Positions 20,647 through 55,449 of a stretch of DNA of 64,000 nucleotides are shown here, one piece after another. Positions within the stretch are counted from its first letter, which is position 1, and each line of letters starts with the position of its first letter. The notes below the pieces were generated by a model. That model saw nothing but the letters and a program-made list of their open reading frames with translations, had not been told where the DNA came from and did not search any database. Source of the stretch: Salinimicrobium sediminis (GTDB lineage Bacteria > Bacteroidota > Bacteroidia > Flavobacteriales > Flavobacteriaceae); NCBI RefSeq assembly GCF_900215295.1, contig NZ_OCMF01000001.1, positions 558,001-622,000 of the forward strand, read 5' to 3'. Position numbers and translations under genes: made by a program.

Positions 20647-20686
20647 TATCTTTGCCCCCTCATTAATAACCGGGGTCGGGAACCCC
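20647..20686 (+). promoter_or_regulatory. rpsP promoter -7 box and leader hairpin
   Basis: TATCTTTG (20647-20654) is a strong -7 box, with start near 20661. The leader contains GGGGT (20672-20676) / ACCCC (20682-20686) with loop CGGGA, a small stable hairpin that may be a ribosomal-protein-type autoregulatory site. Confidence 0.6.
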
Positions 20687-20700
20687 ACAAATTAATTTTT

Positions 20701-53648: not shown

Positions 53649-53799
53649 TTTACAGATTCAGCATCACGTTATTACAGCCCCTGAGATCTCAAGGGAAGCG
53701 CAAAAATACGTTTAATGTACGAAAGTGAAAAGTTTGGTCGTTTTAAAGAAAAGGATTCATTTACTTTATTACTTTTACACAAATTTACGCAGCCGCCCT

Positions 53800-54678
53800 A
53801 TGAGTTCATCTTTTGAAAAGTATCAAAAAAGACGTCTTATTTCCTCTTATTTTTCGGTCGTTATCAGTATTGCGCTGGTGCTTTTTTTACTTGGATTGTT
53901 GGGCCTGCTGGTGCTCAACACTAAAAAGATCGCAGATCATTTTAAGGAACAGATCGCACTTACTATCTATCTAAAAGATACTGCCAAGGAAGTCGAGATC
54001 ACACAGCTCAACAAAAGTCTGGCTTTAGCCGAATATACCAAATCCACCACCTATGTGACCAAAGAAGAGGCAGCCGAGGCACATAGTAAAGAAATTGGGG
54101 AGGATTTCATGGAGTTCCTGGGGTATAATCCGCTGCAGAATTCTATAGATGTCTATTTTAAAGCAGATTATATTACATCGGGAGAGATCGACCAGATCGC
54201 CGAAGAACTTACCGCCAAAAGTTTTGTAGATGAAGTGGTTTATGATAAGCCGCTGATCTCCCTTTTGAACGAGAACGTGACAAAAATAAGTTTTTGGATC
54301 CTGGTGATCAGCGCCATTTTCACTTTTATAGCAGTGTTGTTGATCAATAGCTCTATACGATTATCGGTTTATTCCAAGAGATTTACCATTAAGACCATGC
54401 AAATGGTGGGGGCTACAAAAAGGTTTATTAGAAGGCCTTTCGTGTGGCAAAGCGTTAAGCTGGGAATGATAGGAGCTGTACTGGCTTTATTTGGAATGGG
54501 TCTTGTGCTTCATTACATGAACAAAAGTTTCCCTGAACTGGAACTCCTCAATGATGTGACGCTTTTAGCCGCTCTTTTTATCGGAGTATTTTTAATGGGA
54601 ATCATTATCACCTGGTTTAGCACATTTTTGGCCACTCAAAGATTCCTGAACCTTAAAACGGATGAGCTTTATTACTAG
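53800..54678 (+). CDS. ftsX: Cell division protein FtsX
   Basis: A 292-residue membrane protein with four helices and a periplasmic loop. It starts SSSFEKYQKRRLISSYFS; the ECD region has QIALTIYLKD and FVDEVVYDKPLI, and the cytoplasmic signature is RLSVYSKRFTIKTMQMVGAT. FtsEX couples ATP hydrolysis to activation of cell-wall hydrolases at division. ftsE is not adjacent. The ATG at 53800 is preferred to one at 53725 inside the leuS upstream region. It heads ftsX-(insert)-DUF3098-uppP-truB. Confidence 0.93.
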   Translation: MSSSFEKYQKRRLISSYFSVVISIALVLFLLGLLGLLVLNTKKIADHFKEQIALTIYLKDTAKEVEITQLNKSLALAEYTKSTTYVTKEEAAEAHSKEIGEDFMEFLGYNPLQNSIDVYFKADYITSGEIDQIAEELTAKSFVDEVVYDKPLISLLNENVTKISFWILVISAIFTFIAVLLINSSIRLSVYSKRFTIKTMQMVGATKRFIRRPFVWQSVKLGMIGAVLALFGMGLVLHYMNKSFPELELLNDVTLLAALFIGVFLMGIIITWFSTFLATQRFLNLKTDELYY

Positions 54679-54693
54679 TAAGATCCTCAATCA

Positions 54694-54711
54694 ATTTAGC
54701 CACAGATGCAC
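54694..54711. repeat. Left inverted repeat of the GxxExxY cassette
   Basis: ATTTAGCCACAGATGCAC, 18 bp, is the exact reverse complement of 55169-55186. The next 13 bases also match imperfectly. Confidence 0.9.
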
Positions 54712-54719
54712 TGATATTT

Positions 54720-55094
54720 ATGGGAGAATTTCTTTATAAAGATCTAACCTATCAAATTATTGGTGTTCTTTTCGACGTTCACAATGAACTTGGAGGTGGT
54801 TTCCTTGAAGTAGTTTATTCTGATGCTGTAGAATATGAATTAAAAGCCAGAGAAATTCCTTATGAGAGAGAGAAAAAATACCAGGTTCATTATAAAGACT
54901 CCATTCTTCCTCATCATTTTTATGCAGATTTTGTAGTATTTGATAAAATAATTCTGGAATTGAAATCAGCTAGCCATCTTCATGATGCTCATATGGCGCA
55001 ATGTCTGAATTATCTAAAAATCTCTAAATTGAAGCTTGCCATCCTGGCAAACTTTGAAGGAGATAAATTAATACACCACAGAATTATACTTTAA
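54720..55094 (+). CDS. GxxExxY protein
   Basis: A 124-residue protein of the GxxExxY family, named for NELGGGFLEVVYSDAV (G-x2-E-x2-Y form), with RELPYEREKKY-like IPYEREKKYQVHYKD, FYADFVVFDKIILELKSA and QCLNYLKISKLKLAILANF. The ELK and YADFVV pattern resembles a PD-(D/E)XK nuclease core. Members occur scattered in bacterial genomes and inside 23S rRNA intervening sequences; function is unproven. It starts 9 bp inside the left repeat and is bounded on the right by its inverted copy; it separates ftsX from DUF3098-uppP-truB, usually contiguous. Confidence 0.88.
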   Translation: MGEFLYKDLTYQIIGVLFDVHNELGGGFLEVVYSDAVEYELKAREIPYEREKKYQVHYKDSILPHHFYADFVVFDKIILELKSASHLHDAHMAQCLNYLKISKLKLAILANFEGDKLIHHRIIL

Positions 55095-55168
55095 TTATAA
55101 AATTGAGATCATTTGGAGGAAAAAAGTTTTATTGTCCCTAATTTTGGAGGCAAGATAAAAATACATCT

Positions 55169-55186
55169 GTGCATCTGTGGCTAAAT
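55169..55186. repeat. Right inverted repeat of the GxxExxY cassette
   Basis: GTGCATCTGTGGCTAAAT, the exact reverse complement of 54694-54711. It is preceded by a further CATCTGT (55164-55170), so ATCTGTG occurs twice in tandem. It overlaps a possible GTG start (55177) of the DUF3098 gene. Confidence 0.9.
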
Positions 55187-55194
55187 CCTATTCT

Positions 55195-55449
55195 ATGAAC
55201 AAAAGCAAAAAACCTCTACACAAACAGGACCTCAATTTCGTTTTTGAGAAAAAGAATTATATAGTCATGGGTATTGGGCTGGCGGTGATTGCACTGGGTT
55301 TTATTCTAATGGCCGGCGGCGGTAGCGACGATCCGAATGTTTTTAATGAAGAGATCTACAATTTTAGAAGAATTAGACTGGCACCTGCGTTGGTATTAAT
55401 TGGCTTTGCAATAGAAGTCTACGCCATTCTTCTTAACCCCCGAAAATAA
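55195..55449 (+). CDS. DUF3098 membrane protein
   Basis: An 84-residue protein with two predicted helices (about 25-45 and 62-80) and the DUF3098 pattern (DLNFVFEKKNYIVMGIGLAV, FNEEIYNFRRIRLAPALVLI, read separately). Function is unknown; in Bacteroidota it sits between ftsX and uppP. The ATG at 55195 is chosen because an earlier GTG at 55177 lies inside the right repeat of the inserted cassette. It is 3 nt before uppP. Confidence 0.88.
   Translation: MNKSKKPLHKQDLNFVFEKKNYIVMGIGLAVIALGFILMAGGGSDDPNVFNEEIYNFRRIRLAPALVLIGFAIEVYAILLNPRK

Follow-up and report, generated by a model that had tools for sequence, protein, structure and literature searches.

A GxxExxY gene within its own inverted heptamer arrays in Salinimicrobium sediminis: a probable member of a chromosomal repeat system

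The window analyzed here is a stretch of 64,000 nucleotides from Salinimicrobium sediminis, and toward its end the gap between ftsX and a DUF3098-type gene holds a small unit made of one gene and two inverted arms. The features of this gap, in window coordinates, are as follows.

53725 to 54678, + strand: left neighbor, given as the ORF listed (its start is probably further downstream), which we take to be ftsX, the name used in the original prediction (ORF list).
54694 to 54715, + strand: left arm, ATTTAGC followed by the gene-facing words CACAGAT (54701 to 54707) and CACTGAT (54709 to 54715) (sequence, inverted-repeat search, word scan).
54720 to 55094, + strand: GxxExxY gene, 124 aa, intact (ORF list, PF13366, TIGR04256).
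55165 to 55186, − strand: right arm with the gene-facing words CACAGAT (55173 to 55179) and CACAGAT (55165 to 55171) (sequence, inverted-repeat search, word scan).
55195 to 55449, + strand: right neighbor, a DUF3098-type gene, the family name being that of the original prediction (sequence).

The ftsX stop lies 15 nt from the left arm, and the start codon of the DUF3098-type gene, which has matches in 38 of 40 genomes with its own included, lies 8 nt past the right arm. The unit had first been noticed as a perfect 18-bp inverted repeat around a single GxxExxY gene with no transposase, and all three observations stand. The repeat, ATTTAGCCACAGATGCAC, is found at 54694-54711 on the + strand, with its exact reverse complement at 55169-55186; tolerating up to 3 mismatches gives no further copy within the window, and tolerating up to 2 gives none in the whole genome of 3.48 Mb. 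Shuffled windows contained it 0.05 times on average, and none of 100 gave two copies. With some tolerance the inverted repeat lengthens to 22 nt at 95% complementarity (54694-54715 and 55165-55186), and the local alignment of arm to arm scores 41; across the other 68 ORFs of 100 aa or more in the window, the same alignment reaches 31 at most and 19 in the median.

Between the arms, the sole ORF of at least 50 aa is the 124-aa one, which matches PF13366 and TIGR04256, and neither the ORF list nor Pfam revealed further gene families. Among ORFs of at least 50 aa searched with Pfam, no DDE, HUH or site-specific recombinase gene was found there; for the window protein itself, Pfam at E 0.001 returned PF13366 alone and no HUH Y1 transposase. 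Terminal inverted repeats as in insertion sequences are present.

The protein belongs to an established family, matching TIGR04256 (GxxExxY) with E 2.7e-39 and 134.1 bits (curated cut-off 35) and PF13366 with E 2e-36 and 125.3 bits (curated cut-off 22). It carries the signature of a PD-(D/E)XK enzyme in E30, D70, E80-x-K82 and Q94xxxY98, the QxxxY motif being a mark of the RecB/Cas4 group. In an alignment of the window protein with 44 relatives, the residues invariant in all 45 sequences include G25, E30, Y33, D70, E80, K82, Q94, Y98, N111, F112 and R121. A search of solved structures by sequence gave as its best result one match at E 0.36. With the AF2 model (pLDDT 94.8, pTM 0.87), Foldseek ranks Cas4 SSO0001 (4ic1) first, at E 2.9e-4 and TMq 0.62, and nothing else reaches E 0.001; weaker matches, in the range 3e-3 to 5e-3, are ACE1 (3e-3), lambda exonuclease (4.7e-3) and LHK-Exo. 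The PD-(D/E)XK core suggested at the outset is thus supported by the model, by the Cas4 match and by the invariant D70, E80 and K82, and GxxExxY is, by its predicted structure, a Cas4/lambda-exonuclease-like PD-(D/E)XK core and a putative nuclease. Fold, D...ExK residues and QxxxY are shared with Cas4/RecB-family nucleases (SSO0001, lambda exonuclease, ACE1), whereas GxxExxY is a bare core of 124 aa. Cas4 carries an iron-sulfur cluster; the sequence of the bare core gives no sign of one, since no cysteine is among the residues invariant in the 45 GxxExxY sequences. A function for GxxExxY, PDDEXK_3 or PF13366 was not found in searches of the open PMC literature; where the available parts of PMC8934634 and PMC12085832 mention GxxExxY, it is not in connection with repeats.

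What surrounds the other members of the family? The window genome has three PF13366 genes, each within inverted repeats of a different sequence: the words are of the CACAGAT type in the window, of the CGCAAAG type at locus L003 and of the CGCGAAT type at L004. The proposal to look for the 18-bp repeat around further GxxExxY genes missed this: a search for the exact repeat found no other copy, yet the other two genes have inverted repeats of their own. Exact matching is an unsuitable test here as the words vary by element, and to discard the idea on finding the repeat at this place alone, as had been proposed, would mislead because the letters of the word change between elements.

The same arrangement recurs within the genus and beyond. 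In most of 26 Salinimicrobium loci, the arms consist of a short gene-facing word, C-R-C-N-R-A-K, which varies from locus to locus yet mostly agrees between both arms of one locus. By eye, the flanks of two of these loci, L008 and L013, resemble those in records of S. profundisediminis and S. catena. The wider sample was built from 30 phylum loci, 80 more stretches and 80 named loci (subfamily query), and comprises 220 unique gene matches, 213 of them with complete flanks, mostly from Bacteroidota. The fetched loci are mostly best-scoring matches rather than a random sample. Dropped rows were L001 and L002 (same place as L005), three duplicate gene matches and seven with less than 200 nt of flank; near-identical copies from two collections may persist in the set of 213, and a small number of matches are pieces of the same gene. 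Gene-facing words reach a density of 2.23 per 100 bp upstream and 2.81 downstream in the 50 bp next to the gene, against 0.27 and 0.37 for the opposite orientation and about 0.1 past 400 bp (140 gene matches). Gene-facing arrays of at least two words flank 114 of the 213 genes on both sides and 51 on one side, leaving 48 with none; many of the latter show other words by eye, such as CGCAACG, CACATAG, CACGAAA and GAACGCAGAT. At 700-950 bp from the gene, both-sided arrays are found in 0 of 192 cases and any array in 9, and the other ORFs of the same loci have both-sided arrays in 2 of 158 cases; with outward orientation, used as a control, arrays still appear on both sides in 13 of the 213 and on any side in 49.

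An alignment of the arms that makes no use of words agrees with these counts: arms score 35 in the median (n=215), far flanks 18 (n=192) and arms swapped between loci 21, and 137 of 213 gene matches lie above the 95th percentile set by those 158 ORFs. A statistic of shared 7-mers gave no separation (29 of 140 inverted and 27 of 140 direct above the 99th percentile of swapped flanks) and was replaced by word arrays and arm alignment. Adjacent words start 9 bp apart in most instances (186), followed by 10 (127), 8 (60) and 11 bp (50), a spacing close to one helical turn. The whole element has a median length of 471 bp (n=114). Two observations at single loci may be added here: at L049/L282 (G173:C30:42628-43312) CACAGAT arrays are amplified in a satellite-like manner, in steps of about 47 bp, adjoining a GxxExxY gene, and at L044, L064, L079 and L083 the GxxExxY matches occur in nearby pairs that suggest tandem duplication or element decay.

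Inverted arms around a small ORF also recall the intervening sequences (IVS) of 23S rRNA, to which the original prediction had linked GxxExxY. That link does not hold: the Pfam model 23S_rRNA_IVP is PF05635, not PF13366, and the window unit, whose ORF matches PF13366 and not PF05635, lies in the ftsX-DUF3098 gap instead of a 23S rRNA gene. A broader form of the idea is an RNA-level element in which the arms pair, RNase III excises the loop with the gene, and insertion into an operon is harmless. Several elements do sit between housekeeping genes on the same strand (cysD|cysN, ftsX, and neighbors annotated as radA and as fabD|fabG), the arms are inverted, and PF05635, the IVS family with its four-helix-bundle ORF, has a similar architecture of a small ORF within inverted repeats. 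The two proteins are, however, unrelated, and the arms carry no sign of a constraint from RNA pairing: across 176 alignments, 319 mismatches between arms are wobble-compatible and 357 are not, and this lack of a G-U bias leads us to prefer words read in DNA to a stem formed in RNA. Moreover, several genus loci keep the words where the spacers between them differ, many loci have arms that are short or offset, and Rfam, run at 18 sources that represent a small part of the loci, found no rRNA and no match at the element. An RNA-level element is on these grounds highly improbable. The sole Rfam match in the 18 sources was the S16-Flavobacteria ribosomal leader RF03138, at 20662-20696 (+) of the window with 58.6 bits.

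Recognition of DNA words raises the point of whether word and protein change together. On a FastTree tree of 211 proteins, from which matches below 100 bits were excluded, position 7 of the word (T or G) changes 8 times, compared with a minimum of 29 in 100 shuffles; for position 2 the figures are 18 and 37, and for positions 4-5 they are 26 and 47. By this comparison of sequences, word type is associated with protein clade; gene and arms are linked, so the association alone is no proof of recognition. Nearest-neighbor pairs pointed to residue 123 and residues 114-118 as candidates for specificity. At residue 123, V goes with G at word position 2 in 60 cases and I with A in 50, with 21 opposite combinations (143 labeled rows); with phylogenetically independent pairs and a correction over columns no specificity residue is significant, and residue 123 stays a lead. 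Between genes and arrays of the same genome, agreement in the type of position 7 is weak (p 0.015, 45 genomes, with part of the genes covered in most), and the contrary genomes include G135, G041, G246 and G185.

In Salinimicrobium, similarity of the flanks places the 26 genes at 6 sites. For cysD|cysN, 10 genomes provide 15 junctions, second copies included, after exclusion of 6 weak matches (38% identity) from the cysN search. Six junctions are filled and 9 are without element, with stop-to-start distances of 467-542 bp and 2-137 bp, respectively; one junction counted as without element (L316) holds a single word, and one filled junction (L320) comes from a second copy within the G003 assembly and could be contamination. 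The window genome itself has two cysDN copies about 9 kb apart (G000:C7:346230 and 355643), one with the element and one without. At site C, the neighbors in G000 and G011 are 95% and 92% identical and the GxxExxY genes 56%, with words CGCGAAT and CRCGGAT, respectively. Another site, A, lies between genes read as AIR-synthase-like and msrA-like. There G000 and G010 have the gene in the opposite orientation to that in G001, G003, G004, G009 and G011, and genes of the CGCAGAT type are 46-61% identical to the others, compared with up to 97% for the neighbors; for two of its loci (L018, L019) one flank only matches in place.

At the ftsX site, inspection by eye of 12 genus genomes found the gene in 2, gene-less arms in 4, a single arm in 1, a degraded trace in 1, an array-free junction in 3, and 1 that fits no class. 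The gene-less arms (L220, L226, L227, L229) comprise one with a remnant word as its left arm (L220), one with a single right word (L226) and one that retains the first codons of the gene (L229). It had been stated that ftsX and the DUF3098-type gene are normally contiguous in this lineage; this holds in part, as 3 of the 12 genomes have a short junction without arrays (71-89 nt). Outside the genus, 18 such junctions were fetched, and the ftsX end motif was present in 4 only. The view of the window unit as an inserted minimal unit is in turn upheld by the junctions without element that occur in relatives.

By comparison alone, then, equivalent junctions occur in filled and empty form, and a fixed site can hold different subtypes in related species, with gene and flanking arms differing together. 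These alignments support insertion or loss, in either direction in any one case, as well as the presence of different whole units at one site; what looks like replacement there may also come from the loss of different old paralogues in different species.

Do these sites speak for a resident or for a mobile unit? One possibility is that the arrays act as regulatory or terminator sites, with GxxExxY as a domesticated, immobile regulator that binds them, passed on by vertical descent and now and then lost. Long residence at the same genus sites and the gene-less arms at the ftsX site would agree with it. A mere regulator would sit oddly, however, with catalytic residues that are invariant in 45 sequences, with different subtypes and inverted orientation at fixed sites, with filled and empty cysDN copies in one genome, and with array numbers that range from 0 to 107 per genome among the matches listed. 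Such domestication appears very unlikely.

The opposite possibility is a very small insertion sequence, in which the arms would be terminal inverted repeats composed of several binding sites and the nuclease a PD-(D/E)XK transposase acting by cut-and-paste or copy-out. TnsA, a transposase of the PD-(D/E)XK type, offers a comparison. Inverted ends, a fairly constant length (the median of 471 bp given above) and the cysD|cysN junctions without element are what one would look for in this case. Flanking direct repeats were found in 10 of 111 elements against 0.3 expected, with lengths of 13-48, and by eye 8 of the 10 are bordered by further arrays, so that tandem duplication explains those repeats. 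No clear or consistent target-site duplication emerges, and the direct repeats, mostly tandem array structure, fit amplification and decay around the element. At L027, a perfect 15-nt duplication of the ftsX end is not bordered by arrays and counts in favor of an insertion sequence, though it does not abut the arms. Furthermore, 26 genus genes at 6 sites only are unlike free transposition, and so are different subtypes at one site in related species. Mobile records point the same way: with one query protein each, phage records gave 0 matches in 50,697 and plasmid records 6 in 72,556. An insertion sequence is for these reasons unlikely, though less so than a domesticated regulator.

The six plasmid loci have clear paired arms in two cases, namely Bernardetia (between ade and mannose-1-phosphate guanylyltransferase) and Bacteroides finegoldii (between radA and a gene for an FAD-dependent protein); the Sphingomonas locus, between fabD and fabG, has the left arm only, and the 3 others have no clear pairing. 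In viral contigs, one query gave 357 pattern stretches, none of which was confirmed. The family is common: of 247 genomes sampled from the window's phylum, 122 have PF13366 among the matches listed, and, with fragments counted, matches per genome are 3 in the window genome, at least 12 at the upper end in Bacteroidota and up to 15 in Planctomycetota. In a Planctomycetota sample the gene occurs in 36 of 79 genomes; 29 loci were fetched, one of which (L347) was excluded for its short flank, and arrays are present on both sides in 14 of 28 and on at least one side in 22 of 28, against 0 and 3 of 25 in the far control, with a median arm score of 44.5 versus 20. Paired arms are also seen in Nostoc (L217/L338, L340) and in a Methanophagales archaeon (L184/L336).

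The arrays are not confined to genes. A three-word pattern has 1,784 matches in 247 genomes, compared with 54 for the reversed pattern, and 1,663 of the 1,784 sit in genomes with PF13366; these counts, like all those that follow for the pattern, are among the matches listed and take in gene arms and tandem copies. Of the 122 genomes with PF13366, 93 contain an array and 29 contain none; of the 125 without it, 24 contain one (Fisher p 5e-20, shared ancestry included), and the mean number of matches per genome is 13.6 with the gene and 0.97 without. The numbers are very uneven, the maximum of 107 falling in a genome with 4 gene matches. Among 30 array loci that were fetched, 11 show by eye an inward, palindromic pair of arrays separated by a gap of a few to some tens of bp or more (L281, L287, L288, L289, L294, L295, L296, L301, L303, L306, L307). 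Others are one-sided or outward, two adjoin a GxxExxY gene (L280, L282), and a few of the 30 may fall in coding sequence. Two genomes, G169 and G160, have 33 and 37 three-word matches and no PF13366 match, again among the matches listed; the gene may have been lost or not assembled, or the arrays may be served by another protein.

Read together, the comparisons reveal a gene within inverted arrays, its phyletic breadth, a word specific to each element and an enrichment of arrays in genomes that bear the gene. It is our moderately confident view that the window unit is a member of a chromosomal repeat system, formed by a GxxExxY nuclease gene in its own inverted 7-mer arrays together with scattered gene-less copies, some of them palindromic. 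This would be a nuclease-plus-cognate-array system, possibly spread by homing-like conversion. We infer that the protein, 120-130 aa long, binds arrays of its own word and there nicks or cuts the DNA. The intact target would be a palindromic array without the gene, in which the arms are adjacent; in the gene-bearing copy, the gene would keep the half-sites apart. When a cut array is repaired from a copy with the gene, gene and arms would be copied together in a homing-like manner, which would keep the arms alike and explain the reuse of sites, and deletion of the gene would leave a gene-less array. Such conversion would fit a gene lying across its own palindromic target, together with palindromes that lack the gene, matched arms and differing units at fixed sites.

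The logic is close to that of RAYTs (TnpA-REP) and their REP/REPIN sequences. RAYTs are HUH Y1 transposases, each encoded by a single chromosomal gene between inverted copies of a short repeat; up to tens of copies of this repeat are also scattered over the genome, and its type tracks that of the gene. The GxxExxY arrays, too, are both dispersed genome-wide and found at the flanks of the gene. The protein family and fold were already known, and RAYT/REPIN is an established example of a repeat family that goes with a gene of its own. What differs here is the enzyme, an unrelated one of the PD-(D/E)XK type, the word grammar, a degenerate 7-mer array with 8-12 bp spacing, and the coexistence in one genome of several words, as several genes with different words are possible.

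Intergenic or free-standing homing endonuclease genes offer the other comparison. There as well a gene splits what appears to be its own target, filled and empty alleles exist, and the alleles differ in gene and flanking arms together. In the present case, however, homing would act on a dispersed repeat family and not on one conserved gene site, and the nearest fold is Cas4, followed by lambda-exonuclease-like folds, rather than LAGLIDADG, HNH or GIY-YIG. Association with word arrays, gene-less arrays and turnover at sites were not found in searches of the open PMC literature, where six repeat strings appeared only in papers on other subjects. That the arrangement returns, with a different word at each place, in other bacteria and an archaeon, along with many gene-less arrays, suggests that this class of minimal genome repeat element is widespread and as yet undescribed.

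GxxExxY, a common family, gains a candidate substrate from its own repeat words, and one class of dispersed short-word repeats gains a candidate cause. The word shifts from element to element and is consistent within each, so that recognition and coevolution could be tested directly on a synthetic 40-bp array with the small protein of 124 aa.

A last point concerns PF05635, the 23S_rRNA_IVP family, which occurs in 45 of 61 genomes, with 10 matches in the window genome, among the matches listed. Its flanks lack the C-R-C-N-R-A-K arrays (both sides 0 of 30, any side 1 of 30), but they align as inverted repeats with a median of 32, compared with 18 for far flanks (n=30), and by eye their short words include TCAGTAA-like and TATAAAG-like ones. 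Why would such arrays evolve twice, in a second and unrelated family of similar architecture? On a tentative reading, slightly less likely than not, degenerate 7-mer arrays are what can be seen of an undescribed kind of minimal selfish element in bacteria and archaea, in which small proteins of at least two unrelated families (the GxxExxY nucleases and the four-helix-bundle PF05635 proteins) would each read a drifting word, home into its arrays, keep the two arms alike by conversion and leave tens of gene-less palindromes behind.

Dispersed heptamers have been described before. TAACTGA repeats in Beggiatoaceae, Cyanobacteria and Bacteroidetes are dispersed, mostly intergenic and of unexplained cause, and a repeat-binding protein was considered as a possible mobile element (MacGregor 2015, PMC4679880). 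They share with the GxxExxY arrays the form of dispersed heptamer arrays and the overlapping lineages; they differ in the word, in being direct repeats of a heptamer and, in the available part of that paper, in having no gene tied to them. The TCAGTAA/TCAGTAG-like words at two PF05635 loci (L274, L276) resemble the reverse complement of TAACTGA and are a candidate link. The PF05635 loci as a whole (L249-L278) tend to lie within inverted arrays of short words that differ widely in sequence, for example CAGTAATCAGTAATCAG at L274 and CTAGAGTCTAGA at L275, and positions of the family in the window genome include C5:41166, C6:114060, C7:360925, C8:173515 and C8:701534.
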